Shown here: in pieces, positions 19,184 through 47,867 of the stretch
How the letters are laid out: every line of letters begins with the position of its first letter
Position numbering within the stretch: position 1 is the stretch's first letter
NCBI GenBank assembly: GCA_023129715.1
Contig: JAGMBO010000060.1
Coordinates: forward strand, 1-54,114
Source: Candidatus Eiseniibacteriota bacterium
Lineage (GTDB): Bacteria > Eisenbacteria > RBG-16-71-46 > CAIMUX01 > WJJG01
Length of the DNA stretch: 54,114 bases
Direction: 5' to 3'
Notes under the pieces: generated by a model
The model's input: only the letters and a program-made list of their open reading frames with translations
What the model was told of the DNA's origin: nothing
Databases searched by the model: none
Made by a program: the position numbers and the translations under genes

Positions 19184-19248
19184 CAGATCCCGCCTCGGGT
19201 GACAATCGAACGGAAACTGCGCTGCATCAGACCCCGCCTCGGTTGACA
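19164..19248. repeat. 41-bp direct duplication over the kinase start
   Basis: Positions 19164-19204 and 19208-19248 are 41-bp copies with three mismatches, three bases apart. On the minus strand each holds GAGGCGGG(A/G)TCTGATGCAGCGC. Ribosome site, start codon and the first codons are thus duplicated. The outer copy opens a 14-residue reading starting MQRSFRSI that stops in TGA overlapping the ATG of the real gene. Confidence 0.9.
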
Positions 19249-19290
19249 GATGCCTGTGCTGCCCGCCGCGGGATGGTCCGCGCGACGGGG

Positions 19291-26085: not shown

Positions 26086-26442
26086 CTAGGTTCTGACCGC
26101 CGCACTACGCATCCCGGCCGCATAGAGCCGGCCGGATGCCTCGAAGAGGCTGAGGTCGGTCGACATCAAAACGATGTCCTCCTCCCGGGCCAGCTCGACG
26201 AGTCTCTCCTCCACCGGTTTGCCCCGTACGATCACCGCCGCCTTGATCCCGGCCACTGCGGAGGTGCGTACGACCTGCAGGGTTGCCAAACCGGTGAGCA
26301 TGACATCGGGTGTGCCCAGCCGGGCTAGGATGTCGCTCATCAGGTCGCTCGCCGCGACTGTGACGACTTCCTGCTGGAGCTCCTCTTCGCTGCCATGCAG
26401 GGCCTTGGCCGACAGCGCCTCTGCTAACGCGCTAAGTGTCAT
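26086..26442 (-). CDS. DRTGG-domain protein (second copy)
   Basis: A 118-residue protein like the 24778-25119 product (VAASDLMSDILARLG, AAVIVRGKPVEERLV). It is a diverged paralogue in the same operon. Its start overlaps the end of the NuoG-NuoE gene by 11 bases, and AAGGAAA precedes it. Confidence 0.7.
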   Translation of the reverse strand: MTLSALAEALSAKALHGSEEELQQEVVTVAASDLMSDILARLGTPDVMLTGLATLQVVRTSAVAGIKAAVIVRGKPVEERLVELAREEDIVLMSTDLSLFEASGRLYAAGMRSAAVRT

Positions 26443-29380
26443 TTTCCTTGCTCCTGTAACTCTCGACGATGGAAGTGACTTCCTTGGGATCGAGCATCCC
26501 GTGCGTTTTCTCGCCCACCATCATGACCGGGGCTAGACCACAAGCGCCCAGGCAGCGCACCGCCTCGAGGCTGAATTCGCGGTCGGGCGTCGTCTCGCCC
26601 ACGGTGATGCGCAGGTGCCGTTCGAGCGTCTCGAGCAGCCTCTGGGCACCCTTGACGTAGCAGGCCGTCCCCAGGCAGAGGCGGACCGTGTAGCGGCCTC
26701 GGGGGACCATTGTGAAGAACGAGTAGAACGAAACGACGCCGAAGACATCCGCGGCGGGCACGCCCAATCCGACGGCGATGTAGTTCTGCGCCGGCACCGG
26801 CAGGAACCCCAGGATCTCCTGGGATTTCTGCAGCACCGGGATCAGTCCTCCCCGGCGCTGACGATGGGCAACCAGGACTTCGTCGATCTCGATCTTTTTC
26901 TCGGTGCTCTCCTCTTCCTCGAGGAACGCCTCGAACGCCTGGGTGACCTCCTCGCGGTCACTGGGCCAGTCGCGCGTGCCGCCCTCGGTGTCGGGAAGCG
27001 ACTCGAGCAACCCGTGGCACTGTTCGAGCAGGTTGCGATGGTGATAGGCGATGAGTTCCCCTTCCGGAGGGAGCGTGGGAAGCGCATCGCCGTCGAGTCT
27101 CACGCTGGCCACGCTCTGCGGATCGGGGACCGGCCACTGGCGGCCATCACCCGCCAGACGCGCATACGTGATCCCGGCGACCTGCGTGACCAACGGTGCG
27201 ATCTCGGTCTCCCAGATCTCGCCGGGACTCCGCTCGGGCCAATCGGCCCCGAGCCGGCGGGCGAGCGCGGTGAGGATCCATATGCCTGGGCGCGCCTCCC
27301 CGGGAGCCTCGACGGCGGGGGTAATCCGGGTGACGCGGCGCTCGCAGTTGATCGTCGTGCCCTCTTCCTCGACCCATGCCGCGGCCGGCAGGACGACGTC
27401 GGCCTGGGCGGTCATCTGATTGGCTCGGCTCGCCTGGACAACGAGGAACTCGATGCCCGCGAGCGCCTCCTGAGCGCCCGGCAGGCCGGCGGTCAACAGG
27501 GTCAGGTCCTCGCCGAGGCTGTAGAGCAGGCGGATCCGCGGCTTGCCGCCTTCCCCTGCGGCGCCCGCCGCGCCCGCGGCGCTACCGACGATCTGCATCG
27601 TCCCGCGCCCCGGGGTCTCGCCGAGCCGGCAGTTCCAGGCCTGTTCCCAACGCTGCCGCGCCTGCGGGTCGCCGACCGGTTGATAGCCCGGCAGGAGGGT
27701 CGGCTCGGCGCCCATCAGGGCCGCGCCGACCGAGTTGTTGAGCGCCGCCAGGGGATTGACCCCGCCACACGCGACCCCCAGATTCTCGAGCGCGCGCTGG
27801 ATGGTGTAGAAGAGCGGCGCCCAGGCGGCGACCTTGGCCCCATAGACGAGCATCGTCGGCCCACCGGCGCGCAGGCGCGAGACGAGCTGTTCGATCTCAC
27901 CCTCGCCGACGCCGGTTGCGGCGCTCACCTTCTCGAGCGGATATTCTTCGGCCGTCTTGCGCTCCTCGTCGAAGCCGCGCGCCTTGCCGGTCTCGAGCAG
28001 CCGTCGGATCAGACCTTGAAAGAGCACCGCCTCGGTGCCCTTGCGCGGCTGCACGACAAGCTTGGCGAACCGCTGGATCCGCGTCTCGGCGTCGTCGACG
28101 ACGATCAGCTCGCAGCCCCGCGCTTGCGCGCGCTTGATCAATGATCCGGCAACCGGATTCTCCGCGGTCACGTCCGAGCCGATCAGCAGGATCCGGCCGG
28201 CCCGCTCCAGCTCGCCCAGCGAATTGGTCATCGGCAGCGCCCGCAGGGGAGCGCTGACGTTGTGCGTGCCGATCACCGCCCGCAGGAGTTTCTGGGCCAG
28301 GAAGAGCGTCTCGTTGCTCGCCTTGGCCGAACAGACCGCCGCGATGGCATCGGGCCCATCGCTCTCCTTGACCTCACGGATCCGACTCGCCACGCGTTCG
28401 AGGGCCTCGTCCCAGGTCGCCTCACGCAGCGCGCCGTTCTCGCGGACGAGCGGCCGGGTGATGCGGTCTGGCGCTTGGAGGAAGTCGAATCCGAAGCGTC
28501 CCTGAATGCAGAGGCGGCCGAGGTTGGGATCGGCGCCCTCGACACCCTCGACCTTCATCACGCGCCCATCCTTCAGTTGCAGATCGAGCTGGCAGCCGAC
28601 ACTGCAGTAGTGACAGGTGGCCCGGTGGTGGCGCACTTCCCAGGGGCGGACCTGATAGCGGCTGCGCTTCTCGACCAGCGCGCCCACCGGGCAGCTCTGG
28701 ATGCACTCGCCGCAAAAGACGCAGTCGGAGCGATCGAGTTCCTGGTTGCCGATGGCGATGATCTTGACCTTTGCGCCGCGGAAGCCGTGGGATATGGCGT
28801 TGTTGACCTGGATCTCGTTGCAAGCCTGTACACAGCGCCCGCAGAGGATGCAGCGCGAGAAGTCACGGATGATCAGCGGGCTCGCCATCTCCAGCGGATA
28901 CTCCGGCGCCCGTGCCGCATAACGTCCGCTGTCGACCTGATAGCGGTAGGAGAGCGCCTGTAGGCGGCAGGTTCCATAGACCTCGCAGAGCTCCTCGCTC
29001 TGGTCGTAGTCGGCAGTGTCGCGCTGCAGGGAGGTCCAGGTGCCGTCACTCGTCCGGCGCGCGGAGCAATTGTGATGGCCCGAGGCGAGCAGCAGGCCCA
29101 ACACGGCCCGCCGCGCCGCAAGCACCTTCGGCGAGTTGGTGCGCACCACCATCTTGGGTGCGCAGGGCGTTGTACAGGCCGCCGCCAGGGCTTTCGGGCC
29201 CTCGACATCGACGGTACAGATCCGGCACGCCCCGGTCGGGGGAGCCCCCGGCAGGTGGCAGAGCGTGGGGATGAAGATGTTGTTGCGCTTCGCCACATCG
29301 AGGATCGTCTCGCCGGGTTCGAAGGGCAGACGATGCCCATTGATGGTGATCGCGTTTTCGGGTCTGTTCTCAGCGTTCAT
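26432..29380 (-). CDS. NuoG/formate-dehydrogenase-like subunit fused to NuoE
   Basis: A 982-residue fusion. Residues 1-80 hold a plant-type [2Fe-2S] site (C41, C52, C55, C69). A NuoG His/Cys region follows, then two 4Fe-4S sites (C177-187 and C220-230). A further FDH-type 4Fe-4S site comes next (C256, C259, C263, C291), then a molybdopterin-oxidoreductase fold (about 300-800). From about residue 840 it becomes NuoE (RLCLGTACYVKGA, VRCLGACGLAPVMM). In catalytic relatives a segment with Cys or Sec follows GTNNV; here GTHNVSAPLRALPMTNSLG skips it, so no Mo/W catalysis is expected. It should be an electron wire between NADH- and ferredoxin-side partners. Confidence 0.88.
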   Translation of the reverse strand: MNAENRPENAITINGHRLPFEPGETILDVAKRNNIFIPTLCHLPGAPPTGACRICTVDVEGPKALAAACTTPCAPKMVVRTNSPKVLAARRAVLGLLLASGHHNCSARRTSDGTWTSLQRDTADYDQSEELCEVYGTCRLQALSYRYQVDSGRYAARAPEYPLEMASPLIIRDFSRCILCGRCVQACNEIQVNNAISHGFRGAKVKIIAIGNQELDRSDCVFCGECIQSCPVGALVEKRSRYQVRPWEVRHHRATCHYCSVGCQLDLQLKDGRVMKVEGVEGADPNLGRLCIQGRFGFDFLQAPDRITRPLVRENGALREATWDEALERVASRIREVKESDGPDAIAAVCSAKASNETLFLAQKLLRAVIGTHNVSAPLRALPMTNSLGELERAGRILLIGSDVTAENPVAGSLIKRAQARGCELIVVDDAETRIQRFAKLVVQPRKGTEAVLFQGLIRRLLETGKARGFDEERKTAEEYPLEKVSAATGVGEGEIEQLVSRLRAGGPTMLVYGAKVAAWAPLFYTIQRALENLGVACGGVNPLAALNNSVGAALMGAEPTLLPGYQPVGDPQARQRWEQAWNCRLGETPGRGTMQIVGSAAGAAGAAGEGGKPRIRLLYSLGEDLTLLTAGLPGAQEALAGIEFLVVQASRANQMTAQADVVLPAAAWVEEEGTTINCERRVTRITPAVEAPGEARPGIWILTALARRLGADWPERSPGEIWETEIAPLVTQVAGITYARLAGDGRQWPVPDPQSVASVRLDGDALPTLPPEGELIAYHHRNLLEQCHGLLESLPDTEGGTRDWPSDREEVTQAFEAFLEEEESTEKKIEIDEVLVAHRQRRGGLIPVLQKSQEILGFLPVPAQNYIAVGLGVPAADVFGVVSFYSFFTMVPRGRYTVRLCLGTACYVKGAQRLLETLERHLRITVGETTPDREFSLEAVRCLGACGLAPVMMVGEKTHGMLDPKEVTSIVESYRSKENDT

Positions 29381-29395: not shown

Positions 29396-31471
29396 CTACA
29401 TTGCCTGGCGATAACAGATCAGCCCACACTGCAGGCAACGCTCGGCTTCCTTGCCGGCGCTGGTTGGATCGAGTCCGGCGATCTCCTCCGTGTTGGTCCA
29501 GTCGGCCTCCGTGCCTGGCTCGGGCGCGGGCACCGCGGGCCGCTGGCGGGGCAGGGCGGAGACGCCCTCGATCTCGGAGACATCGAGAATTCCGTCGGCT
29601 TCGACGACGAGTTGCCGGATGGGGGCGATAATGCCGCCGGAGAAGTGCTGGTGGATCCCGCGCACGACCCGGCGCCCCGAGAGAATCGCCTGCACGACCG
29701 CCGAGGCATCGCTGATCCGCCCCGGCTCGGGCGAGCTGAAGACCCCCTCGCCCCCGTGGCCGGGCAGCGTGCGGATGATCTCGATCGTGCGCCACTTGCC
29801 ACGGAAGACCGGCTCCTCGTCTTCTTCCGTGCCGAGCGCCTCCCTGACCGGCACGATGACCAGCTCAGGAATCCGGCCCGCGGCGACGATCAGGAGATCG
29901 GTGTCGACCAGGGAGACGGCCAGGGCCACACCGGGCGTTTCCGATGCTTCCTCGAGAGAGACGCTCGTCAGGCGCTCTTCCGCGCCCCACAGTGCGGAGA
30001 TCACCGTGCGAGGCCGCACCCGGATGCCTTCGCGCTCCAGTTCGTCGGTCTCGCGCAATTCTGTGGGGATCCGCCCGAGGGGGTGGCCGGTGACGATGGT
30101 GACCTGCTCGGCGCCGCCGGCGAGGCAGGCGCGGGCGACATCCAGTGCGCGCCGCACGCCGCCGACGATCGTCACGCGGCGTCCGGCCGGCGCGGGCGCG
30201 TCGTTCCCGAGCGCCGGGAGGACATCGATCATCAGGCGCACGCCGGGGATCAGCGTCTCCTTGCCGGTCCCCGGGCGCAGGACCTTGCGGCTGTCGAATC
30301 CGCCGGTCGCCAGGAGCACGGCGTCATACCCATCGGCGAGCAGCGAGTGCACGGTGAAATCGCGTCCGAGCACCTGTCCGGTGCGCGCGGTGACACCCAT
30401 CTCGAGAATGCCCTTGATCTCATGATCGAGCACGCCATCGGGCAACCGGCTCGGCGAGATGACATAGCGCAGGACGCCGCCCAGTTCCGGCTTGGCCTCG
30501 TAGAGCGTCGGGGCGTGGCCCAGCCGGGCGAGATAGTAGGCGGCGGTCAGCCCCTCGGTCCCGCCACCGATCACCGCCGTGCGCCGCCCGCTGTCGGGCG
30601 CCTTGTAGGGGTTGACATGTCGGCCGGTCTGCATCTCGTAATCGGCGGCGAAGCGCTTCAAGTCGTTGATGGCGACCGGGTCGTCGGGCGTCAGATTGCG
30701 CCGGCACTCGATCTCGCACGGTGCCGGACAGATCCGGCCGCAAACGAGCGGCAAGGGACACTTCTCCTTGATGATTCGCAGGGCCCCCTCAGGCTGCCCG
30801 ACCCGGATCGCGTTGATGTAGCTCGGGATGTCGATCCCCGTCGGACAGGCGCGCTGGCAGGGGGCGGTGCACTCGTCGGTGGTGTACTCGGCTTGGATCC
30901 GCTTGGTCGCCGAGGTCAGCGCGATGATGTTCTTCGGGCAGGCCTCGACACAGGCGCCGCAGGCAATGCACTTCTTCGGATTGAAGACCGGCAGCCGATC
31001 CTCATCCATTGAGAGGGCGTCGAACTGGCAGGCCTTCACACAGCTTCCCAGGCCGATACAGCCGATCGGACAGAGCTTGCTGCCGCCGAAGAGCGCCACC
31101 GCCGCCTGACAGTCTTGCGCTCCGCTGTAAGTGTAGATTGGATCGGCCTCGCCGACGCCGTAGGTGCAGCTCGTCCAAGCGAGCTCGGGTTCCTTGATCT
31201 CGACCGGGATGCCCAGGATCGCGCCGACCTCGATTGCCGTCTCGGCGCCGCCGGCGACACAGACGTTACAGGGGGCCTTGCCCGAGACGATCGCCTCGGC
31301 GCACGCGCGGCAGCCGGCGTAGCCGCAACCGCCGCAGTTGGCGCCCGGCAAGGCTGCCTCGACCTCCGAGATCCGCGGGTCTTCCTTGACGTAGAAGACG
31401 CGCGAGGCGATGCCGAGCAGCAGTGCCGCGCCGGCGCCCAAGGCACCCATGAAGATCAGAGGAATTGTCAT
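29396..31471 (-). CDS. rnfB: RnfB fused to a GltD-like module
   Basis: A 691-residue protein. One N-terminal TM (about 4-22) is followed by the RnfB 4Fe-4S domain (NCGGCGYAGCRACAEAI, about 45-60) and ferredoxin sites CPIGCIGLGSCVKAC and CIACGACVEACP up to 180. From about 200 a GltD/NfnB-like module follows, with CTAPCQRACPTG and the FAD loop GGGTEGLTAA. The second nucleotide site reads GGVRRALDVA without the YRR pair, and the closing AGGD is replaced by FSSPEPG. The FAD and NADPH sites thus look partly lost. RnfB is the ferredoxin-facing subunit of the ion-pumping Rnf complex. The extra module may dock a soluble partner. Confidence 0.9.
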   Translation of the reverse strand: MTIPLIFMGALGAGAALLLGIASRVFYVKEDPRISEVEAALPGANCGGCGYAGCRACAEAIVSGKAPCNVCVAGGAETAIEVGAILGIPVEIKEPELAWTSCTYGVGEADPIYTYSGAQDCQAAVALFGGSKLCPIGCIGLGSCVKACQFDALSMDEDRLPVFNPKKCIACGACVEACPKNIIALTSATKRIQAEYTTDECTAPCQRACPTGIDIPSYINAIRVGQPEGALRIIKEKCPLPLVCGRICPAPCEIECRRNLTPDDPVAINDLKRFAADYEMQTGRHVNPYKAPDSGRRTAVIGGGTEGLTAAYYLARLGHAPTLYEAKPELGGVLRYVISPSRLPDGVLDHEIKGILEMGVTARTGQVLGRDFTVHSLLADGYDAVLLATGGFDSRKVLRPGTGKETLIPGVRLMIDVLPALGNDAPAPAGRRVTIVGGVRRALDVARACLAGGAEQVTIVTGHPLGRIPTELRETDELEREGIRVRPRTVISALWGAEERLTSVSLEEASETPGVALAVSLVDTDLLIVAAGRIPELVIVPVREALGTEEDEEPVFRGKWRTIEIIRTLPGHGGEGVFSSPEPGRISDASAVVQAILSGRRVVRGIHQHFSGGIIAPIRQLVVEADGILDVSEIEGVSALPRQRPAVPAPEPGTEADWTNTEEIAGLDPTSAGKEAERCLQCGLICYRQAM

Positions 31472-31556: not shown

Positions 31557-32129
31557 TCAGGCCATCCCCAAGAAGCCCAGAAAGGCGAGCGACATCAGGC
31601 CCGCGGTAATCAGCCCAATGGCGGTGTCCTGCAACGGCTGCGGAATCCGCGTCGTGCGGAACCGCTCGCGCAGCCCGGCGAAGAGCACCAGGGCAAGGGC
31701 GAAACCGATTGCGCTGGACACCGAGAAGATGACCATCTTCACGAAGCCATAATCGTTGCGGACATTGAGGAGCGCCACGCCGAGGATCGCACAGTTGGTC
31801 GTGATCAGCGGTAGGAAGATCCCCAGGGCTTGATAGAGCGCCGGGAGAGTCTTCTTCATGAAGATCTCGACGAACTGCACGAGCGCAGCGATCACCAGGA
31901 TGAAGGCGATCGTCTGCAAGTACTCGATCCCGTAGGGCACGAGCACGCTGCGGCTGACGATCCAGGTGATCGCCGAAGCCACCGTCATGGTGAAGATTAC
32001 CGCCATGCCCATCCCGACGGCCGTTTCCATCCGTTTGGAAACGCCCTGGAAGGGGCAGTGGCCCAGATACTGGGCCAAGAGGATGTTCTTCACCAGGATC
32101 GCACTGATGGCGAGCAGGATCAGCTCCAC
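31557..32129 (-). CDS. rnfA: Rnf complex subunit RnfA
   Basis: A 190-residue integral membrane protein with six hydrophobic segments. It contains NILLAQYLGHCPFQGVS near the N-terminus and LPLITTNCAILGVAL in the middle, the two half-repeats whose cysteines hold the intramembrane Fe-S site shared with RnfE. It starts with GTG at 32129, preceded by GGGAGG. It is encoded after rnfE as in most rnf operons. Confidence 0.95.
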   Translation of the reverse strand: MELILLAISAILVKNILLAQYLGHCPFQGVSKRMETAVGMGMAVIFTMTVASAITWIVSRSVLVPYGIEYLQTIAFILVIAALVQFVEIFMKKTLPALYQALGIFLPLITTNCAILGVALLNVRNDYGFVKMVIFSVSSAIGFALALVLFAGLRERFRTTRIPQPLQDTAIGLITAGLMSLAFLGFLGMA

Positions 32130-32342: not shown

Positions 32343-32969
32343 CTAGAAGCGCCGCTGTAAGCTCTCCTCGCGCGCCCGCAGCCGGAAGCGGTCGACCGCG
32401 TTGAGCAGGAAGAGCAACACGCCGAGCCCGATGAACGCGCCCGGCGCCTTGGCGAACAGGGTGAAGGGCTCAAAGGACTCCCCGAAGAGGGGGGTCCCCA
32501 GGAATGTGCCCGCGCCCAGGATCTCACGCACCGTGCCGAGCACGGCGAGTGAGAGCGTGAAGCCCAGGCCGATGCCGAGCCCATCGACGGCCGCCAGATG
32601 GACGGGGTTCTTGGCGGCGAAGGCCTCGGCGCGCCCCAGGATGATGCAGTTAACGACGATCAGGGGGATGAAGATCCCCAGGCTCTGTGAGAGCGGGAAG
32701 AAAAAGGCCTTCATGATGATCTCGACGATCACGACGAAGGTGGCGATCAAGACAATGAAACAGGCGATGCGCACTTTCGAGGGGATCACCTTGCGCAGCA
32801 GCGAGACGAGGACGTTGGAGCAAACGAGCACGAAGGTCGCCGCCAGCCCCATTCCGATGCCGTTGGCCACCGTGGTCGTCACCGCCAGCACGGGGCAGAG
32901 CCCCAGCACGAGGCGGAAGGGTGGAAGATGAGTCGTGAAACCCTTCGAGAATTCCTTGACGATTCGCAT
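32343..32969 (-). CDS. rnfE: Rnf complex subunit RnfE
   Basis: A 208-residue membrane protein with about six TM segments. It contains LVLGLCPVLAVTTTVANG and LGIFIPLIVVNCIILGRAEA, the RnfE/NqrD half-repeats with the Fe-S cysteines. ATG 32969 follows the rnfG stop by 16 bases, with GGGGTGG upstream. A longer in-frame reading overlapping rnfG is rejected. Confidence 0.95.
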   Translation of the reverse strand: MRIVKEFSKGFTTHLPPFRLVLGLCPVLAVTTTVANGIGMGLAATFVLVCSNVLVSLLRKVIPSKVRIACFIVLIATFVVIVEIIMKAFFFPLSQSLGIFIPLIVVNCIILGRAEAFAAKNPVHLAAVDGLGIGLGFTLSLAVLGTVREILGAGTFLGTPLFGESFEPFTLFAKAPGAFIGLGVLLFLLNAVDRFRLRAREESLQRRF

Positions 32970-32985
32970 GACGCCACCCCGCCGG

Positions 32986-33588
32986 CTAGCGGCCGGTCTG
33001 CTCCCGGACCCAGCCGGGAATCTCATCCTTGTGAGCCAGCACGAACTGAACCGCCCGATCGACACCGTTGGCCACCGCCGCGCTCGTGCGCGTGGCCCCC
33101 GAGACGCCTTCGATCTCCCCGCCCGCCGATTTGAGCGCGATCACCGTCCCCGCGCGGACCGGCACCCCCTGGTAAATCCGCATGTAGAGCGGGTCGGCCA
33201 CACGCGTGCCGATGCCGGGGGTCTCGCCATGTTGGGCCACCCGGGCTCCGAGGATCCGGCCGGCGGAGAAATCGATCCCGGTCATCACCATCACGTCGCC
33301 ACCATAGCCGCCGGCGCCGGCGGCCTGCAGCGCTACTGCCCTGCACTCGCCGTTCTCGATCCAGGGGTAGAGGCGCCAGGACTGGCCATCGACCTCGACA
33401 CTGAAGGCGTCGGCGACCGGATCGTTGGGCGCGTCGGGGAAGATGTCATGCACCGCGGGGCCCCGGACGTAGAACTCCTCCTGCTGCGCGATGCGCGCCT
33501 CCAGCCCGTTGTTGAGCGCGGTCAGCGCAAAGGCGGAGGCGAGACAGATCGCCGTCAGCACGATGATCATCTTGGCCATTTCATTCAT
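32986..33588 (-). CDS. rnfG: Rnf complex subunit RnfG (covalent FMN protein)
   Basis: A 200-residue protein with one N-terminal TM (about 6-24) and an extracytoplasmic FMN-binding domain. SGATRTS at 163-169 holds the Thr (T166) that carries FMN as a phosphoester. It overlaps rnfD by four bases (ATGA). Confidence 0.94.
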   Translation of the reverse strand: MNEMAKMIIVLTAICLASAFALTALNNGLEARIAQQEEFYVRGPAVHDIFPDAPNDPVADAFSVEVDGQSWRLYPWIENGECRAVALQAAGAGGYGGDVMVMTGIDFSAGRILGARVAQHGETPGIGTRVADPLYMRIYQGVPVRAGTVIALKSAGGEIEGVSGATRTSAAVANGVDRAVQFVLAHKDEIPGWVREQTGR

Positions 33589-34553
33589 CGCGACGCTACC
33601 TCCACGCCGATGACCGGCGGGTGCACCCGGTCGATCAGCGGTTGGACGAGGTTCATCAGGAGTACCGCGAAAACCGTGCCGTCGGGGTAGGAACCGAAGG
33701 TACGGATCAGGATCGCCAGCAGGCCGCAGGAGGCACCGAAGATCACCTGGGCCCAGGGATTGACCGGGGCACAGGAAAAGTCGGTCGCCATGAAGAAGGC
33801 GGCGAAGACGAGCATGCCCGAGAAGAGGTGCAGCCCGGGCGGCGCGTAGGTTGTGGCATCACCGAGATGGAGGGCGAGTGCGGCGACGAACGCCATCCCC
33901 AGGAAGGCGAGGGGGATCCGCCAGGCGATGAACCCGCGGATGATCAGGTAGATCCCGCCGAGGGCGAGGAGGCCGATCATGCCCGAGGCGACCCCGCCAG
34001 TTTGCAGCCCGAGCAGCAAGTTGCCGAGCGGATAGGCATCCGCGGCGCCCGGCCCGAAGCTCTGCCAGGCGAGCAGCGGTTCGATCGGCTGGGCGGCGGT
34101 CGCCAAGCCCCCCAGGCGCCAGGCGGTGTTGAGTTGCCCGGGCCAGGAGATGAGCAGGATCGCATAGGTAAGCAGGACGGGTTGCAGCAGATAGCCCCCC
34201 TGGCCGCCGAAGAACTGCTTGGCCAGCACGACCAGCAGAAGCGCGCCGATCAGCACCAGCCACCAGGGAGCGGCGGCATGCAGCAGCATGCCGAGCATCA
34301 GGCCCTGGACCAGGGCGGAGCCGTCGAGCACGCTCGTCTCGCGCTTCATCATGCGTCCGGTGAGCCACTCGAGCACCACGGTCGTTCCCACCGCCAGGAG
34401 CAGCGTCCGCAGCCCCGGCAGCCCCCAGAGGAGCACGCCGCCCGCTGCGGCGGGAATCAGGGCCAGGAGCTGATTGAGGTGGATCTCCGCGACGCTGATC
34501 CCGAAATGGGTGTGGGGCGGCATCGCCACACTCAACAACGGAGAACGCTTCAT
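33585..34553 (-). CDS. rnfD: Rnf complex subunit RnfD
   Basis: A 322-residue membrane protein with about ten TM segments. The family features seen are ETSVLDGSALVQGLMLG, FGGQGGYLLQPVL (the GGxG..NPA-like region) and FMATDFSCAPVNPWAQVIFG. At the place where the covalent-FMN SGATP motif is usual I read GLATAAQPIEPLL, so the flavin attachment Thr may be absent. ATG 34553 is chosen; the open frame upstream overlaps rnfC. Confidence 0.92.
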   Translation of the reverse strand: MKRSPLLSVAMPPHTHFGISVAEIHLNQLLALIPAAAGGVLLWGLPGLRTLLLAVGTTVVLEWLTGRMMKRETSVLDGSALVQGLMLGMLLHAAAPWWLVLIGALLLVVLAKQFFGGQGGYLLQPVLLTYAILLISWPGQLNTAWRLGGLATAAQPIEPLLAWQSFGPGAADAYPLGNLLLGLQTGGVASGMIGLLALGGIYLIIRGFIAWRIPLAFLGMAFVAALALHLGDATTYAPPGLHLFSGMLVFAAFFMATDFSCAPVNPWAQVIFGASCGLLAILIRTFGSYPDGTVFAVLLMNLVQPLIDRVHPPVIGVEVASR

Positions 34554-34585
34554 CCTGATTGCCTCCGAGTTCGTCAGCCTGCCAG

Positions 34586-35950
34586 CTAGGCCGTCACCGC
34601 CGGCGTCGATTCTCCCGCCGGCTCGGAATCGGGCTCCGGCGCCTCGGGTCCCGCGGGCTCGTCGGTTGTCGGGGCGGCGGCCAGCGCCTCGTGGTAGCGG
34701 CGCACCGCGAACCGCATGTATTGCAGCAAGGGCCGATGGGCCGGGCAGACGTAGCCGCACAGGCCGCACTCGATGCACGCGTGTGCGCCTTGCTGGAAGG
34801 CCTCCTCGACGAGGGCGAATTCCGCATAGCGCGAGACGAGGTTCACCTGGATCCGGACCGGACAGATGTGCACGCAGCGGCCGCAGTTGATACAGGGAGC
34901 CTCGGCCGGGCAGTAGGCATCCGCCGCCGGGATGACCGTCAGCCCGTCGGTCTCCCGGGTGACCGGCGCGTCGAGATCGAATTGCGCCTCTCCCCGCAGA
35001 CGGCCGCCGAAGACGACCCGGTCGCCCTCTTCGACGGCGATGTCGAGTTGCGCGAGCAAATGGTTGACCGGCGTGCCCATGCGGGTGCGCACCGTTACCG
35101 GCTGCGGCAGGCTCCTGGCCGAAACGGTGACCAGTTTCTCCGTGCCCGGTTGCCCCTCCTCGAGGCTAAGACCCAGGCAGGCGGCCTCCTCGGCGGTGAT
35201 CGCCAGCAGGCCGGCCTGGCGGGCAGCCGCCCGGGTCAGGTTGCCGGTGCCGGCGATGCGGGCCAACGCCAGACGCCAGTCGTTGTCCAAGTAGTCGGAG
35301 CCGACCTGGAAGAGCTCGACATCCGGGAAGGCGCCGCGGGCCTCGTCCTGCAGACTCTCCGGGACGACCAGCACCAGCCGTGCATTTCCGGCGACGCGCG
35401 CCAATGCGCTCAGGCCCCGGCTCAGCTCGGCGCGCAGCTCCATGAGAAAGCGACGCTGCACCGCGATTTCCGGCTCCTGGTCGATGGCCAGCACGGCGAC
35501 CGCGTCAACGGCCGGCAACGGCGCCTCGTCCCCGGGCGCCGGCGGCGTGGCCCACGTCCAGGCGCCCAGTTCGACCAGCAAGGCCCGCACGTCGTCGGGA
35601 GTGGCGAGGTCGGGTTCCGCGAGCGTGTGCGGCCGCGCCCACAGGTCCTCTTCGGCCATACTCAGTTCCAATCCGCGGGTCTGTTCGCCGGCGGGCGTGT
35701 AGAGTGGGCCGCTCTCGAGAACCTCTCCCGCGATCGGCGCATGTAGGGGGGCATGGTCGGGCGCCGTGGCGACCGGCTGGCCGCGGACGACCCGGTCTCC
35801 CGGGGCAACCAGGGGCTCGAGCTCCGTCCCATCCGGATGGATCAGGGGCAGCCTGACCTTCGCGGGCGGCGGCAGGGTGCAGATCTCGCCCTGCCAGTCG
35901 TTCATCTCAATGCGTGGGTTCCGTAGACCGAAGAAGCGCTCCGCTTTCAC
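34586..35950 (-). CDS. rnfC: Rnf complex subunit RnfC, diverged
   Basis: A 454-residue peripheral subunit. The N-terminal barrel-sandwich domain is present (PLVAPGDRVVRGQPVATAP, LHAPIAGEVLESG). Two ferredoxin sites sit near the C-terminus (CINCGRCVHICP, CIECGLCGYVCPAHRPLL). The middle domain lacks the RnfC NADH/FMN loop GGAGFPT: residues about 124-138 read LVELGAWTWATPPAP. The ECEP motif is replaced by IDQEPE near 156. The NADH site may therefore be lost. GTG 35950 is the start, with GGGGAGGAG just before it. Confidence 0.9.
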   Translation of the reverse strand: MKAERFFGLRNPRIEMNDWQGEICTLPPPAKVRLPLIHPDGTELEPLVAPGDRVVRGQPVATAPDHAPLHAPIAGEVLESGPLYTPAGEQTRGLELSMAEEDLWARPHTLAEPDLATPDDVRALLVELGAWTWATPPAPGDEAPLPAVDAVAVLAIDQEPEIAVQRRFLMELRAELSRGLSALARVAGNARLVLVVPESLQDEARGAFPDVELFQVGSDYLDNDWRLALARIAGTGNLTRAAARQAGLLAITAEEAACLGLSLEEGQPGTEKLVTVSARSLPQPVTVRTRMGTPVNHLLAQLDIAVEEGDRVVFGGRLRGEAQFDLDAPVTRETDGLTVIPAADAYCPAEAPCINCGRCVHICPVRIQVNLVSRYAEFALVEEAFQQGAHACIECGLCGYVCPAHRPLLQYMRFAVRRYHEALAAAPTTDEPAGPEAPEPDSEPAGESTPAVTA

Positions 35951-36044
35951 CGCTCCTCCCCGTGCGTTTTTCCTGGAAGCCGGCGCCGTGACAGGCAGCC
36001 GGCAGCGTCTCGCGCCTCGAATCCCGAGGCCTCCTGGCTCCCGG

Positions 36045-36809
36045 CTATTGCTTCAGATGACAGGTCGTGCAGACCGTTGGCGCGTCCTCGCGCGAGCGGG
36101 TGAAGAAGGTCCCCTCCTCCAAATCCAGGTGGCAACGGTTGCAGCGGCCATGCATGACGGTGCCGCTGCGGGTGGGGACATGACAGCCGGCGCAGTGGTG
36201 TCCTGCGATGGCCACCAATTCCCCATGGGCGAACAGGTCCGCAGTATAGCCATCCTCTTCGTGGCAGCTCGCGCAGGTCGGCGAGGACCCCTCACCGGCG
36301 CCGTGACAAGAGCGGCATGCCATCAGGACGTCGCTCTCTCCGCCGGCGTGACAGGCGCTGCAGCTGTGCCCGGCCTGGATCATCGGGTGGTCGGCTTCGT
36401 GGCATTCGGCGCACGAGGTGGCCTGCGGCGCCGCCACCGGACCGTCGATCGCGTCATGCTCGTGACAGGCGAGGCAGTCGGCGCCGTCGCCCTCCTCGGC
36501 GAAGCCGGCATGCAGATCGCCCTGGTCTTCGTCCTCCCAGGCGACCATCGCGAAGGCCTCAGCGTGATGGCAGACGGTGCAGGTCAGCTCGATCTCTTCG
36601 GCAAGCATCTCGTGATGGCAATAGGCGCACTCCATTTCCATCTCGGCATGTTTCTCATGAGGAAAGAGCACGCCGCCGCCGGTGTTGTCGTAGTAGACAC
36701 GCGTAGGCGTTTCCGCCCCACCGTGCGGAAGGAGGTATCCCAGCAGGCCCAGTACCACCATGGCGAGTCCGAGCATCAGAACCCGCACGGCTCGTTTTGT
36801 CCTGTCCAT
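36045..36809 (-). CDS. Decaheme c-type cytochrome of the rnf operon
   Basis: A 254-residue extracytoplasmic cytochrome held by an N-terminal hydrophobic segment (about 8-28). Ten CxxCH motifs are present: CAYCH, CTVCH, CLACH, CAECH, CSACH, CRSCH, CASCH, CAGCH, CNRCH, CTTCH. It is the first gene of the rnf operon, 94 bases before rnfC. Multiheme cytochromes occupy this position in the rnf clusters of Desulfovibrio (decaheme) and Methanosarcina (MmcA), where they link Rnf to quinone, phenazine or external acceptors. Confidence 0.93.
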   Translation of the reverse strand: MDRTKRAVRVLMLGLAMVVLGLLGYLLPHGGAETPTRVYYDNTGGGVLFPHEKHAEMEMECAYCHHEMLAEEIELTCTVCHHAEAFAMVAWEDEDQGDLHAGFAEEGDGADCLACHEHDAIDGPVAAPQATSCAECHEADHPMIQAGHSCSACHAGGESDVLMACRSCHGAGEGSSPTCASCHEEDGYTADLFAHGELVAIAGHHCAGCHVPTRSGTVMHGRCNRCHLDLEEGTFFTRSREDAPTVCTTCHLKQ

Positions 36810-38592: not shown

Positions 38593-39111
38593 ATGGCGGC
38601 TCGAGCAGAACCCTTTGCCTACCGGCTGTGGCGCTATGACGGCGCGCCGGGCGAGTTGATTCCCCTGCTGCAATCGGCGCAGGATCACTTCGGCTACATC
38701 CCACGGCGCGCGATCAAGTACATCTCCGAGGTGACGCGGATTCCCGAGTCGACGATCTATGGCGTCATCACCTTCTACAGCCAGTTTCGCCTGCAACCCA
38801 TGGGGAAGCATGTGGTCCGGGTCTGCGACGGCACCGCGTGCCATGTCTCCGGAGCCAAGATGCTCATCGATACCGTTCAGGACGAGCTCGGCATCGAGGT
38901 GGGCGATACCACGGAAGATGGGCTTTTCACCCTCTTCACCGTTGCTTGCCTGGGCTGCTGTTCGCTGGCCCCGGTGATGATGCTGAACGACGAGACGCAC
39001 GGCCGCCTGACAGCGGCGGCGGTGCGCAAGTTGCTCCGCGCGTATCGTCGCCGTGAAGCGCAGCAGACGACTGTGCCGGCGGCCGCGGGCGTCCCAGATT
39101 CCCGAGGCTGA
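38593..39111 (+). CDS. nuoE: NuoE/HndA-type [2Fe-2S] subunit
   Basis: A 172-residue subunit. A helical N-terminus (GELIPLLQSAQDHFGYIPRRA) precedes a thioredoxin-like domain whose ligands are in VCDGTACHVSGA and ACLGCCSLAPVMM (four Cys). It should accept electrons from the flavin of the NuoF subunit encoded 80 bases downstream. AGGAG nine bases upstream supports ATG 38593. Confidence 0.92.
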   Translation: MAARAEPFAYRLWRYDGAPGELIPLLQSAQDHFGYIPRRAIKYISEVTRIPESTIYGVITFYSQFRLQPMGKHVVRVCDGTACHVSGAKMLIDTVQDELGIEVGDTTEDGLFTLFTVACLGCCSLAPVMMLNDETHGRLTAAAVRKLLRAYRRREAQQTTVPAAAGVPDSRG

Positions 39112-39191: not shown

Positions 39192-40970
39192 ATGAAGAAA
39201 CTAGTGGTTGGCATGGGTACGTGCGGCCTTTCGGCCGGCGCCAGGCAGGTGTACGAGAAAGTTGCGGAGTTGGTGCGCCTGCATCCGGATGACGCCGAAC
39301 TCCAGATCACCGGCTGCATCGGGATGTGTTACCGCGAGCCGCTCGTCGAAGTGCGCGAGGGAGGCCGCCGGATCATCTACGGCGACGTGACCCCCGAGCG
39401 CGCCGAGGAGATCTTCACCCGCCACATTATCGGCAGTGAGGTCATCGACGAGTATGTCGCTTACCGGCTCGATCCCGACGGCACTCCCGGCGGGACGGAG
39501 CTCGAGTTCATGGTACCCCAGCAGCGCATCGTCCTGCGCAACTGCGGAACGATCGATCCCGAGTCCCTGGCCGAGTACGAGGAGGCCGGCGGCTACCAGG
39601 GCGCCCGCCAGGCGCTCGGCGAGATGACGCCCGAGGGAATCATCGAGCAGATCAAGGCATCCGGGTTGCGGGGACGGGGGGGCGCCGGATTCCCGACCGG
39701 ATTGAAGTGGTCGTTCGCCGCCAAGAACCCGGGCACGATCAAGTACGTCGTCTGCAACGCCGACGAGGGCGATCCGGGCGCGTTCATGGATCGCTCGGTG
39801 CTCGAGGGCGATCCGCACGCTGTCCTGGAGGGGATGGTCATCTGTGCGCGGGCGATCGGCGCGCGCTACGGCTACATTTATTGCCGGGCCGAGTACCCGC
39901 TGGCGATCAAGCGCCTGACGATCGCCCTGGAGGCGGCGCGCAAGAGGGGCTGTCTGGGCGAGGACATCTTCGGCACGGGGTTCGATTTCGACATCAAGAT
40001 CAAGCAGGGCGCGGGGGCCTTCGTCTGCGGCGAAGAGACGGCGCTCTTTGCCTCGATCGAGGGCGAACGCGGCATGCCGCGCATTCGGCCTCCCTTCCCG
40101 GCCGAGAAGGGTCTGTGGCAGAAGCCGACGAACAACAACAACGTCGAGACTTACGCCAACGTGCCCTGGATCATCGTCCAGGGAGCACAGGCCTATGCCG
40201 ATTACGGCACCGAGAAGAGCCGCGGGACGAAGGTCTTCGCCTTGGCCGGCAAGGTCCTCCGCGGAGGGCTGGCCGAGGTGCCGATGGGCACGACGATCCA
40301 CGACCTTGTCTACAAGATCGGGGGGGGCATCAAGGAAGGCCGGGAATTCAAGGCGGTCCAGATGGGCGGTCCTTCGGGGGGCTGCATTCCGCGCGAGCTG
40401 AGTGACACCCCGGTCGATTTCGAGAGCATTCCGCAGACCGGGGCGATCATGGGCTCCGGCGGCATGGTCGTGCTCGACGACTCGACCTGTATGGTCGAGA
40501 TGGCCCGCTTCTTTCTCGACTTCACCCAGAAGGAATCCTGCGGCAAGTGCACCTTCTGCCGCATCGGCACCCTGCGCATGCTCGAGATCCTCGAACGGAT
40601 CACCAAGGGCGAGGGGCAGGCGGAAGATGTCGAGAGACTCGGCCAGCTCGCCAATCAGATCAAGGAGGCGAGCCTGTGTGGCCTCGGGCAGACCGCGCCG
40701 AATCCGGTGCTGACGACGCTCAAGTACTACGGCCATGAGTACGAAGCTCACATTCACGAGCATGTCTGTCCCGCCAAGAGCTGTGAGGCCTTGGTCGACT
40801 TCTTCATCGACGCGGACAAGTGTGTCGGTTGTACGTTGTGCGCCAAGAACTGCCCGGTCGATGCGATCGCGGGCAAGCCGAAGGAAGTGCACATCATCGA
40901 CAACGAGAAGTGCGTCAAGTGCAGCCGGTGTATCACGAGCTGCAACTACGGCGCGGTGTACAAGAACTAG
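39192..40970 (+). CDS. nuoF: NuoF/HydB/HndC-type NADH-binding flavoprotein
   Basis: A 592-residue cytosolic subunit. Its N-terminal [2Fe-2S] thioredoxin-fold domain has C11 and ITGCIGMCYREP. Then follow FMN/NADH loop SGLRGRGGAGFPTGLKW, CNADEGDPGAF, and 4Fe-4S site CGKCTFCRIG. The C-terminus adds a 2x[4Fe-4S] ferredoxin domain (CVGCTLCAKNCP, CVKCSRCITSCN). This is the layout of HydB/HndC in electron-bifurcating enzymes. It is paralogous to the 19833-22880 product but lacks the GltD fusion. Confidence 0.93.
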   Translation: MKKLVVGMGTCGLSAGARQVYEKVAELVRLHPDDAELQITGCIGMCYREPLVEVREGGRRIIYGDVTPERAEEIFTRHIIGSEVIDEYVAYRLDPDGTPGGTELEFMVPQQRIVLRNCGTIDPESLAEYEEAGGYQGARQALGEMTPEGIIEQIKASGLRGRGGAGFPTGLKWSFAAKNPGTIKYVVCNADEGDPGAFMDRSVLEGDPHAVLEGMVICARAIGARYGYIYCRAEYPLAIKRLTIALEAARKRGCLGEDIFGTGFDFDIKIKQGAGAFVCGEETALFASIEGERGMPRIRPPFPAEKGLWQKPTNNNNVETYANVPWIIVQGAQAYADYGTEKSRGTKVFALAGKVLRGGLAEVPMGTTIHDLVYKIGGGIKEGREFKAVQMGGPSGGCIPRELSDTPVDFESIPQTGAIMGSGGMVVLDDSTCMVEMARFFLDFTQKESCGKCTFCRIGTLRMLEILERITKGEGQAEDVERLGQLANQIKEASLCGLGQTAPNPVLTTLKYYGHEYEAHIHEHVCPAKSCEALVDFFIDADKCVGCTLCAKNCPVDAIAGKPKEVHIIDNEKCVKCSRCITSCNYGAVYKN

Positions 40971-40985
40971 AGGTGGATCGGCGGC

Positions 40986-43900
40986 ATGGAAACGATCACG
41001 ATCAAGGTCAATGGCCAGGAGGTCGCCGCGCGGCCCGGGCAGACGATCCTCGATGTCGTCGAGGAGCACGGGCTGGATGACATCCCGACCCTGTGCCACT
41101 CGCCGGAGCTGACGCCCTACGGTTCCTGTTTTCTCTGTGTCGTCGAGATCAAGGGACGTCCCAACTTACTCCCCGCGTGCGCGACCCGGGTGGCGCCGGG
41201 CATGGAGATCGAGACCCGCAACGATCGCGTGGTCGCCTCGCGCCGGACGGCACTCGAGCTACTGCTCTCGAATCACTACGCCGATTGCATCTCGCCGTGC
41301 ATGATCGGCTGCCCGGCGGGGGTCGATGCTCAGGGATACATCGCGCTGGCCGCGATGGGGCAGACGCGCCAGGCCGTCGACCTGATCCGGGAGACCAACC
41401 CACTGCCGGCGATCTGCGGGCGCGTGTGTGTGCGCAAGTGCGAGGTCGTCTGCCGGCGGGCGGAGATCGATGCCCCGGTGGGGATCAATGCGGTCAAGCG
41501 CTATGTCACCGATGCGCCGGGGGCCTACGACACCGATCCCGAGCGGGAGCCCGATCGCGGGCAGAGCGTCGGCATCGTCGGGGCCGGCCCCGCGGGGTTG
41601 ACCGCCGCCTACTTCCTGGGGCGCAAGGGCTACCGGCCGGTGATCTACGAGGCGCTGTCGCGCGGGGGGGGCATGCTGCGCTACGGCATTCCGACCTACC
41701 GGCTGCCCGACGACGTCCTCGATCGTGAGATCGACTACATCCGCCGCGCCGGGGCTGAGATCCACTACGGCGTGCGCGTGGGCAAGGATGTCTCCTTCAC
41801 CGAGCTGCGCGACCGCCACGACGCGCTTTTCGTCGCCCCGGGCGCCTGGACGGGCAAGGCGATGCGGGTCGCGGGGGAGTTCGACACCGTGGGCGTCGTG
41901 ATGGGCGCCGACTTCCTGCGCGAGAAGGCCGCCGACCCCGCTCCGGTCGCCGGCACGGTCGTGGTCGTCGGGGGGGGCAACACGGCGATGGATGTCGCCC
42001 GCACCTCCTGGCGGTGCGGCGCGGAGAAAGTGATCATTCTCTACCGGCGCACAAAGGCGGAGATGCCCGCCGATGAGATGGAGATCGAGGATTGTCTAGA
42101 TGAGAGCATCGAGCTCATGGAGCTCGCCGCGCCGACCGGCATCGTCAAGGAAGATGGCCGGCTGAAGGCGCTGAAGTGCCTGCGGATGAAGCTTGGCGAG
42201 CCGGACGCCTCCGGCCGGCGGCGTCCGGTGCCGATCGAGGGCTCGGAGTTCGAGCTGCCTTGCCAACTCGCCGTCTCGGCCATCGGTCAGGCACCGGTCC
42301 TGGAGGGACTGCGTGAACTGGCCGGCCAGGAACTCGGCGTCTCGCGCTGGGAGACCTATGCGGTCGACACGATCACGATGGGCACCAGTGTGCCGGGCGT
42401 CTTCGCCGGCGGCGATGCCGCCGACGACGGGCCGACGGTGGTGATCGACGCGATTCGCGACGGCCAGCGCGCCGCGCGCGCGATCCATGGTTATCTGAGC
42501 GGCGAGCCGCCGGCGCCCGAACCCTTCATCGTTACCAAGGAATTCTGGGCCAAGCCGGGCAAGGCGGAGCTGGGCGAGATCCCCGAGAGTCCCCGCCACG
42601 AGGTTCATCTGCGTGAGGTCGCCGAGCGGGCCGGGAACTTCACCGAGGTGGCGACCGGTTTCGAGCCGGAAGACGCCGCTCATGAGGCGGCGCGCTGCCT
42701 CGCCTGCGGTTGCCTGCGCTACGATGACTGCGCGCTCCGTCTGCGGGCCGAGGAGTACGGCGTCGACATGACGCGCTTCGCCGGCTACGTGCGCAAGCAC
42801 AAGGTCGATGACCGGCATCCCTACATCGTCTACGATCCCAACAAGTGCGTGCTCTGCGCGCGCTGCATCCGGACCTGTGCACGCGTTCTGCCGATCTCCG
42901 CCATCGGGCTGGTCAATCGTGGATTCCGCACCGAGATGCGCCCGGCGATGAACGATCCCCTGGTCGAGACGAGCTGCATCAGCTGCGGCAACTGCATCGA
43001 TGCCTGTCCGACGGGGGCGCTGACGCCGAAGTACCCATTCCCGGGGCGCGCGGCGCTGAAGAGCGACGATCTCGCCTCGCACTGCGCGCTCTGTTCGATC
43101 GCCTGTCCGATCACCGTGCGGCGCTTCGGCGACGGCCACTACGCAATCACCTCCTCAGGCATCCCGGGCGACTACCTCTGCCGCTACGGACGCTTCGGCT
43201 ACGAGCTCTTCGTCCAGACCCGGCGGCTGGTGGCGCCGCTGGCCCGCTCGGGCAGCGGGTCAGCCGAGATCGACTTCGGGCAAGCGTACCGCCGCACGGC
43301 AGCCGCTTTGCAGGCGGCGGTCGAGAAGCATGGGCCCGAGGCGGTGGTGATTCTGGCCAGTCCCGAGCTGACCAACGAGGAGCTCTATCTGGCCGGGCGA
43401 ATCGCGCGCGAGGGCTTGGGAACCAACAATGTCGGCTCGCTGGTGGCGCTCGAGACCCGCCAGGAGGCGGGGCGGCTCGATCCGATCCTCGGGTTCACCG
43501 CCTCGACCGCCGACCGCACCGCGGTACGCGAGGCGGATGTCATCGTCTGCAACAACACGAGCATGGAGGCCGATCATCTGATTCTCGCCGTCGAGATCAT
43601 CGACGCGGTCCGGCGCGGGGCGAAGCTGGTTGTTGCCAATTCGATTCTCGACATGACCGATACCCTGCTCGGCACGGTGACGCTCGATCCGATGCGCGGG
43701 CGCGCAGCGATGCTGTGGCAGGGTGTGATCCAACAGCTCTTGGCCACCGGGGCGCTCTCCCGGGAGCGGGTGGCCGCGATGCCGGGAGGCGCCGAGTTGC
43801 TCGCCGCGCTGGAATCGGATCTGTCCGCCGTCTCCAAGGCCACCGGGGTCGAGGCGGAGGCGATCGCCCGGACGGCGGAAATCATCGGCGCCGGTGAGCG

Positions 43901-44678
43901 CATCGTTCTCGTCCACAGCCCTGACCGCCCGCAGGACCAGGCGGCGGGTGACCTGGAGACGTTGGCCAACCTCCTCTTGCTGTTGCGCGCCGCGGGCAAG
44001 CAGGTCGATCTGCTCCTGCCGCGCCTGACCGGCAACCTGGCCGGCCTCGAGGTAACCGGCGTCGACCCGGCGTTGCTGCCCGGACGCCGTCCGGCCGACC
44101 GCCTTCCGGGCGCGCACACACACGGCGAACTCCGCGACTTGCTCACGAGCGGCAGGATCAAAGCGGCACTGATCATCGGTGAAGACCCCTTGGAACACTC
44201 CCAGACCAGTTCTTACTTCCAGAATGTCGAGTTCCTCGCGGCGATTGACTGGAAGCACACCGAGACGACCCGTTTCGCCGATATCGCCTTGCCCGGCACG
44301 ACTTATCTCGAGTCGGCGGGCACGCGCTGCAATTTCGAGGGCCGCCTGATTTCCTACTCGCAGCCGGTGGCACCGCCCTCGGGCCGCTCCGGGTGGCAGG
44401 TGCTCGCGGAGCTGGCCGCCGCCTGTGGCGTTGCCGTCGCGCACGATTCAGCCGTCCAGGTGACGGAGGCGCTGGAGCGGGAAGTCCGCCAGGGACTCGG
44501 CCCGTGGGGCGCGTTCTACTGGAATAAGGGAGAAGCACGCGAGTGGTCGGGCGAGGGGACCCTGGTGGTGCCCGTGGCCCGCGCCAAGCCGCATCCGATT
44601 CCGCCGGCGCTTACTCACGGCGGACGTTACAAGCGCGAGATCCGTGAGGTGGGGACCGCGCGCTTCCGCGTGCACTAG
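40986..44678 (+). CDS. NuoG-like large subunit with an internal GltD/NfnB module
   Basis: A 1230-residue protein. Residues 1-90 hold a plant-type [2Fe-2S] site (C37, C48, C51, C65). Residues about 100-560 are a full GltD module: CISPCMIGCP, FAD loop GAGPAGLTAA, NADPH site GGGNTAMDVA with YRR, and FAGGD. Next come two 4Fe-4S sites (CVLCARCIRTCARV, CISCGNCIDACP), an FDH-type cluster (CALCSIAC) and a molybdopterin-oxidoreductase fold to about 1150. After GTNNV the text continues GSLVALETRQ, so the catalytic Cys/Sec is missing. It probably joins NADH, NADPH and ferredoxin chemistry in one chain. It starts 15 bases after nuoF. Confidence 0.88.
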   Translation: METITIKVNGQEVAARPGQTILDVVEEHGLDDIPTLCHSPELTPYGSCFLCVVEIKGRPNLLPACATRVAPGMEIETRNDRVVASRRTALELLLSNHYADCISPCMIGCPAGVDAQGYIALAAMGQTRQAVDLIRETNPLPAICGRVCVRKCEVVCRRAEIDAPVGINAVKRYVTDAPGAYDTDPEREPDRGQSVGIVGAGPAGLTAAYFLGRKGYRPVIYEALSRGGGMLRYGIPTYRLPDDVLDREIDYIRRAGAEIHYGVRVGKDVSFTELRDRHDALFVAPGAWTGKAMRVAGEFDTVGVVMGADFLREKAADPAPVAGTVVVVGGGNTAMDVARTSWRCGAEKVIILYRRTKAEMPADEMEIEDCLDESIELMELAAPTGIVKEDGRLKALKCLRMKLGEPDASGRRRPVPIEGSEFELPCQLAVSAIGQAPVLEGLRELAGQELGVSRWETYAVDTITMGTSVPGVFAGGDAADDGPTVVIDAIRDGQRAARAIHGYLSGEPPAPEPFIVTKEFWAKPGKAELGEIPESPRHEVHLREVAERAGNFTEVATGFEPEDAAHEAARCLACGCLRYDDCALRLRAEEYGVDMTRFAGYVRKHKVDDRHPYIVYDPNKCVLCARCIRTCARVLPISAIGLVNRGFRTEMRPAMNDPLVETSCISCGNCIDACPTGALTPKYPFPGRAALKSDDLASHCALCSIACPITVRRFGDGHYAITSSGIPGDYLCRYGRFGYELFVQTRRLVAPLARSGSGSAEIDFGQAYRRTAAALQAAVEKHGPEAVVILASPELTNEELYLAGRIAREGLGTNNVGSLVALETRQEAGRLDPILGFTASTADRTAVREADVIVCNNTSMEADHLILAVEIIDAVRRGAKLVVANSILDMTDTLLGTVTLDPMRGRAAMLWQGVIQQLLATGALSRERVAAMPGGAELLAALESDLSAVSKATGVEAEAIARTAEIIGAGERIVLVHSPDRPQDQAAGDLETLANLLLLLRAAGKQVDLLLPRLTGNLAGLEVTGVDPALLPGRRPADRLPGAHTHGELRDLLTSGRIKAALIIGEDPLEHSQTSSYFQNVEFLAAIDWKHTETTRFADIALPGTTYLESAGTRCNFEGRLISYSQPVAPPSGRSGWQVLAELAAACGVAVAHDSAVQVTEALEREVRQGLGPWGAFYWNKGEAREWSGEGTLVVPVARAKPHPIPPALTHGGRYKREIREVGTARFRVH

Positions 44679-45786: not shown

Positions 45787-45819
45787 GAGGTGCCACTCCA
45801 GCCATGAGGTGCCAGCATG
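45787..45819 (+). promoter_or_regulatory. Duplicated ribosome-binding segment before the PAS kinase
   Basis: TGAGGTGCCA occurs twice (starting 45787 and 45804), each followed by an ATG. The second pair leads to the kinase start at 45817. The outer copy gives an ATG in another frame. Confidence 0.5.
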
Positions 45820-47865: not shown

Positions 47866-47867
47866 CG

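Follow-up and report, generated by a model that had tools for sequence, protein, structure and literature searches.

Introduction

The Rnf complex is commonly described as a ferredoxin:NAD+ pump in which electrons cross the membrane twice, and the models for A. woodii and C. tetanomorphum disagree on which part moves the ion, RnfA/E or RnfD. In Methanosarcina, which has an Rnf with a cytochrome, the small membrane protein MA0665 is among the features of the system. In A. woodii, Thr156 of RnfD carries a covalently bound FMN that sits between the FMN of RnfG and a riboflavin. In the solved complexes, electrons run from RnfB through RnfA/E to the FMN of RnfG and the FMN and riboflavin of RnfD, and thereafter via two RnfC clusters and the RnfC FMN to NAD+ (PMC9588780, PMC11889175).

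The type with a large RnfB and an RnfC lacking the NADH domain is already known from sulfate reducers, namely Desulfobacula toluolica and other Desulfobacteraceae, as Tol2-type Rnf or Rnf2; in the accessible text of its descriptions, the 700-residue RnfB has NAD-binding sites and RnfC is without the NADH domain (PMC5109826, PMC11887813). Likewise, rnf operons led by a decaheme cytochrome gene are already known from Desulfovibrio, with the order dhcA-rnfCDGEABF (PMC4841214, PMC4215793, PMC4287179). According to the available parts of these sources, vesicle tests for ferredoxin-to-NAD+ coupling failed in Desulfovibrio (PMC4841214), the Desulfovibrionaceae are assigned to Rnf1 (PMC11887813), and a 2024 survey reports many Desulfovibrionaceae in which rnfB is lost, with an FAD-dependent oxidoreductase in its place (PMC11434368). 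Biochemical precedent for an Rnf that reduces cytochrome c without NAD(P) comes from the archaeon Methanosarcina acetivorans (PMC4023990).

Locus and operon organization

The window, i.e. the whole stretch of DNA analysed, comprises positions 1-54,114 of contig JAGMBO010000060.1 of the Candidatus Eiseniibacteriota assembly GCA_023129715.1 (labelled G000:C144). The nearest named relatives of this draft genome are Candidatus Eisenbacteria, and a scan of named genomes returned Eisenbacteria relatives only. Genes for RnfA, B, C, D, E and G are all present, in the order rnfCDGEAB behind a decaheme cytochrome gene (Table 1). The same genome has a second, canonical rnfCDGEAB cluster (G000:C127; L003:8075-13756) with all flavin/NADH motifs in RnfC and a plain RnfB, and an ApbE flavin transferase gene (C127:30410-31318) about 11 kb from it. 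A sensor histidine kinase (17570-19438) that has a single CXXCH heme motif, followed by an NtrC-type regulator, lies at the far end of the strand that carries the rnf genes, and a second kinase/NtrC pair is found at 45817-49241.

Table 1 Features of the rnf locus and its surroundings (window coordinates).
Feature	Position	Strand	Basis or remark
NuoF-GltD fusion; GGAGFPT, NADEGDP and GEETAL motifs intact	19833..22880	-	further downstream of the rnf genes
NuoG/FdhA-like protein fused to NuoE; starts 15 bases past RnfB	26432..29380	-	family matches
RnfB-GltD-like flavoprotein fusion; second nucleotide motif degenerate (GGVRRALD)	29396..31471	-	family matches and motif
RnfA, cluster cysteines retained	31557..32129	-	family match and motif
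RnfE, cluster cysteines retained	32343..32969	-	family match and motif
RnfG, flavinylation motif SGAT intact	32986..33588	-	family match and motif
RnfD	33585..34556	-	family match
RnfD stretch without the covalent-FMN motif [ST]xATPL; reads ATAAQPIEPL	34074..34103	-	alignment; Thr156 of A. woodii
RnfC without FMN/NADH motifs	34586..35950	-	alignment to solved RnfC; TIGR01945 score
Two conserved RnfC 4Fe-4S sites	34745..34894	-	motif scan and alignment
Lost YPQGxE site, now YLDNDW	35276..35293	-	alignment
Lost ECEP site, now DQEP	35471..35482	-	alignment
Lost flavin loop site, GGAxFPT to LGAWTWATPPA	35537..35569	-	alignment; low-confidence loop in AlphaFold2 model
Decaheme c-type cytochrome	36045..36809	-	254 residues, ten CXXCH, hydrophobic N-terminal segment; Cytochrome_C7 and Cytochrom_CIII matches
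NuoE-like protein, divergent cluster	38593..39111	+	family match
NuoF, FMN/NADH motifs intact, divergent cluster	39192..40970	+	family match and motifs
NuoG-like protein with internal GltD-like domain, divergent cluster	40986..44678	+	family matches

RnfC has lost three motifs and kept its cluster sites

The RnfC protein aligns over its full length to the solved chains 7zc6_C, 8ahx_C and 9eri_C (E = 1e-33 to 1e-34), and the canonical flavin and NADH motifs are absent from it. In agreement with the first-pass annotation, the flavin loop (GGATFPT/GGAxFP in the solved chains) is replaced by LGAWTWATPPA and AECEPYL by IDQEPEI, and the cluster sites are kept, with both CxxCxxCxxxCP motifs present at residues 353-363 and 392-402. 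A third motif had been missed, YPQGxE being changed to YLDNDW. The span 34586-36809 given in that annotation contains the feature but takes in RnfC and the cytochrome together, the lost loop itself covering only about 35537-35569.

Scored against NCBIfam TIGR01945 (rnfC), the protein reaches 176 bits, below the 246-bit cut-off, versus 498 for the canonical C127 copy. Its predicted fold is nevertheless that of RnfC: the AlphaFold2 model (mean pLDDT 74) matches RnfC structures best and NqrA next. Residues 133-142, at the former flavin-loop position, form the least certain internal loop ahead of the Fe-S domain of this model. Judged from the alignment, the flavin/NADH pocket is gone, with cofactor binding presumably lost along with it.

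The same loss recurs in the same-family genomes G007, G008 and G009, in which the substitutes are conserved (LGxxSPWKP and REPG.xVQ), and YPQGxE is also altered in G010, where only the C-terminal half of RnfC is visible. Nine more loci from other phyla likewise lack the three motifs. Because relatives and other phyla share the loss, the family with conserved substitutes, and because a separate canonical Rnf is present, sequencing error, chance and a decaying single copy were ruled out. An in-frame TGA in other Eisenbacteria RnfC matches had been considered as a selenocysteine codon; in L009 it is the normal C-terminal stop.

Distribution and phylogeny of the siteless loci

Across 385 genomes spanning the domain, with up to about three per phylum, RnfC scores against profile A3 show a clear gap between copies without the flavin/NADH motifs, here called siteless (at least 525 bits), and canonical ones (at most 332 bits); divergent siteless forms may hide among the canonical scores. 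We compared 14 siteless with 36 canonical loci, RnfB being visible in 9 and 24 of these, respectively. The three RnfC motifs are jointly lost in 13 siteless loci, the fourteenth being cut by a contig end, and present in 36/36 canonical ones, and no siteless copy has lost any of the eight cluster cysteines.

The 14 loci come from at least four phylum-level groups: the window's family; G265 and G442; G244; and G166, G303, G385, G387, G388 and G389. Nine of the siteless-bearing genomes also have a canonical Rnf. Since the canonical type is usually found in the same genome, the siteless type is a parallel machine rather than a decayed only copy. The siteless loci form one clade with support 1.0 in the RnfC tree and also in the RnfA+RnfE tree, which uses proteins without a role in defining the group. 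Being one clade, their linked traits are not independent events, and the trait correlations may reflect few evolutionary events. For this reason, the Fisher values calculated for the locus comparison do not count as independent evidence.

RnfD, RnfG and the RnfA/E pair

The loss extends beyond RnfC. The covalent-FMN motif [ST]xATPL of RnfD is lost in 14/14 siteless loci and kept in all canonical loci compared; a threonine near the FMN position is still present in five siteless loci (the G166 group and G303). Of the riboflavin residues, N123 is altered in four loci (to Q in the window), and D249 is kept in the window but altered in some other siteless loci. The flavinylation motif of RnfG (SGAT/TGAS) and the cluster cysteines of RnfA, RnfE and RnfB are retained in every siteless copy seen. 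With the RnfC and RnfD flavin motifs both lost, the return arm RnfG-RnfD-RnfC-NAD therefore seems to be interrupted at two flavin positions, and the outward arm up to RnfG seems intact.

Window RnfD aligns to NqrB only from NqrB residue 143 on, so the long N-terminal part of NqrB appears to be absent from it. Membership of Na+-NQR was rejected given this alignment, the lack of NqrF in the operon and the eight cluster cysteines of RnfC.

Multiheme cytochromes

The open reading frame upstream of rnfC (36809-36045) contains exactly ten CXXCH motifs, as first annotated. A multiheme cytochrome gene is adjacent in 11/12 informative siteless loci versus 0/36 canonical ones. Seven siteless loci, one of them cut by a contig end, encode 8-10 hemes directly upstream, and in four the gene lies about 5.5 kb downstream of rnfC and encodes 22-27 hemes; at L071:15123-16844 (G166) and in L139 (G385), 22- and 27-heme cytochromes in this downstream position replace the upstream 8-10-heme gene. 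In L073, no cytochrome was found within about 6 kb of siteless rnfC. In the RnfA+RnfE tree, the canonical locus L167 (G311), which has a 4-heme reading frame 2.5 kb upstream, branches beside the siteless loci and is a possible intermediate.

RnfB fusion and NuoEFG-like proteins

RnfB of the window is a 691-residue protein with a GltD-like flavoprotein domain attached, a fusion present in all nine siteless loci with RnfB visible and in none of 24 canonical ones. The FAD-dependent oxidoreductase of the Desulfovibrionaceae may, going by the accessible text of the survey, be the same fusion (PMC11434368). The dinucleotide motifs GGGPxGL and GGGNxAxD are kept in 7/9 siteless clusters; the second is degenerate in G010 (DGGLKGLE) and in the window (GGVRRALD), which has also lost the FAD-side GGD. 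In these same two clusters, RnfB is followed by a NuoG-NuoE fusion, with a NuoF-GltD protein encoded downstream; no NuoEFG-like genes were seen in the other siteless clusters read. As the RnfB motif is degenerate in the two clusters where these genes follow, the NuoG-NuoE/NuoF-GltD module may have taken over nicotinamide chemistry in the window and G010. The molybdopterin domains of the two NuoG/FdhA-like proteins (26432-29380 and 40986-44678) carry no Cys or Sec at the usual catalytic place, and a formate dehydrogenase reading is unsupported.

Discussion

Based on the motifs lost and retained, the linked genes and the common ancestry of the siteless loci, we propose, with slight preference over doubt, that the locus encodes an Rnf2-type (Tol2-type) complex whose NAD-reducing arm is dismantled and whose electrons leave from RnfG to a multiheme cytochrome. 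Electrons would enter at RnfB, donated by reduced ferredoxin or, via a flavoprotein partner on the RnfB side, by NAD(P)H. They would pass the membrane through the RnfA/RnfE iron-sulfur centre to reach the FMN of RnfG, a passage coupled to ion translocation, and exit to the multiheme cytochrome c that the operon encodes, outside the cytoplasmic membrane. They would not return via RnfD and RnfC to NAD+, and RnfC would be retained mainly as a scaffold, like NqrA in Na+-NQR. Exit at RnfG is the simplest and most likely reading, by analogy with the proposal for M. acetivorans (PMC4023990), as the last flavin and that of RnfD are apparently missing and everything up to RnfG is kept. More tentatively, at somewhat less than an even chance, the whole clade may be a half-loop, in which the RnfD and RnfC FMN are lost, an ion-pumping RnfB-RnfA/E-RnfG arm feeds periplasmic multiheme cytochromes, and nicotinamide chemistry resides on the RnfB side, in Eisenbacteria on a NuoEFG-like module.

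The first-pass annotation had suggested an Rnf ending not on NAD+ but on cytochrome, quinone or an outside acceptor. RnfC is indeed very probably devoid of FMN/NADH binding and the multiheme cytochrome is the likely partner, a reading strengthened by the loss of the RnfD flavin motif. However, that annotation overlooked the RnfB-GltD fusion, which puts a potential NAD(P)H site on the opposite side of the complex, and the NADH-binding NuoF-type proteins encoded alongside; hence nicotinamide may still feed the pump. Several observations speak against our proposal. The strict conservation of both RnfC 4Fe-4S sites is hard to explain for a pure scaffold and is the main unexplained point. Furthermore, the RnfD riboflavin contacts are only partly eroded, a threonine persists near the FMN position in five loci, L073 lacks a nearby cytochrome, and dhcA mutants of D. 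alaskensis, which has the same rnf layout, are described in the available text as having almost no phenotype (PMC4215793).

Conservation of the RnfC cysteines is also the main support for a retained U-shaped path, in which RnfD would bind FMN non-covalently or work with riboflavin alone, and the RnfC clusters would feed another cytoplasmic partner rather than NAD+ directly, for example the co-encoded NuoEFG-like proteins. The position of the NuoG-NuoE and NuoF-GltD genes on the same strand and the retained D249 fit such a path, yet the covalent-FMN motif is lost from all siteless RnfD, the NuoEFG-like genes of two clusters cannot explain the whole clade, and the frequent cytochromes are left unaccounted for; we regard it as rather unlikely. 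A little less doubtful is the half-loop running in reverse, from a periplasmic cytochrome pool via RnfG and RnfA/E to RnfB, driven by the ion gradient and making reduced ferredoxin or NAD(P)H. Its structure is that of our preferred explanation, so that confidence in the two overlaps. Reverse flow has been proposed for the decaheme-led Desulfovibrio operons, as far as the accessible text goes (PMC4287179, PMC4841214), and the nearby two-component sensors, one with a heme motif, would suit redox regulation; sequence, however, cannot reveal direction, and no matching periplasmic donor enzyme was identified within the window.

Reduction of a membrane quinone at RnfD, as at NqrB in Na+-NQR, with the cytochrome incidental, would agree with the resemblance of RnfC to NqrA, both in the lost FMN/NADH sites and in the structure matches of the model. 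This we consider improbable, as the NqrB N-terminal part bearing the quinone-site helices (PMC12174285) appears absent from RnfD, NqrF is missing and the cytochrome linkage would go unexplained. That the locus encodes an ordinary ferredoxin:NAD+ Rnf whose RnfC site has diverged but still works is favored by the predicted preservation of the fold; the loss and replacement of three distinct motif regions in 13 loci, the concurrent loss in RnfD and the canonical Rnf of the same genome make this reading very improbable.

If the clade truly lacks both return flavins, the RnfA/E arm alone must sustain ion pumping, which would provide a direct test of the dispute over RnfA/E and RnfD. Such a loss would likewise account for the way in which sulfate reducers and uncultured bacteria link ferredoxin or NAD(P)H of the cytoplasm to periplasmic cytochromes, and would caution against assuming a link to NAD whenever an rnf operon is annotated. 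The siteless clade is a counterpart in nature to the transition proposed from Rnf to Nqr. As far as the accessible literature goes, three findings are new: the RnfD flavin-motif loss, the single clade spanning several phyla, and the version of Eisenbacteria, in which the NAD(P) site of RnfB is degenerate.

Comparison with known systems

By its published description, Tol2-type Rnf/Rnf2 shares with the window an RnfB of about 700 residues with an added domain and an RnfC without the NADH domain. The window and G010 differ from it in the degenerate NAD(P) motif of RnfB and in the NuoG-NuoE/NuoF-GltD genes that follow, and the available parts of its descriptions make no mention of an RnfD that has lost the flavin motif (PMC5109826, PMC11887813). 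Rnf2 of D. multivorans, as described there, similarly has a cytochrome gene in the cluster and sits beside a canonical Rnf1 (PMC5109826, PMC11887813), but its cytochrome is a small one of 15 kDa versus the decaheme protein of the window. In its published layout, the Desulfovibrio operon matches in the decaheme gene followed by rnfCDGEAB and in the nearby response regulators, but is, in the text available, usually treated as a ferredoxin:NAD+ enzyme. The M. acetivorans Rnf, compared by description, has a multiheme cytochrome in the operon and a proposed RnfG to cytochrome c exit, but is archaeal, uses methanophenazine as acceptor and has no reported RnfB fusion (PMC4023990, PMC12174285).

In Na+-NQR, the RnfC homologue NqrA has lost the FMN/NADH sites and a flavin-bearing input module lies on the other side (PMC4014512), whereas the window system keeps RnfB as well as the RnfC clusters, has no NqrF and has an RnfD without the NqrB N-terminal region. 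Finally, the one-way NQR/RNF-like systems also use one of two transmembrane arms; there, however, the NqrB/RnfD-like arm is kept and fused to an NqrF-like domain (PMC8238504), whereas in the window it is the RnfA/E arm that stays intact.
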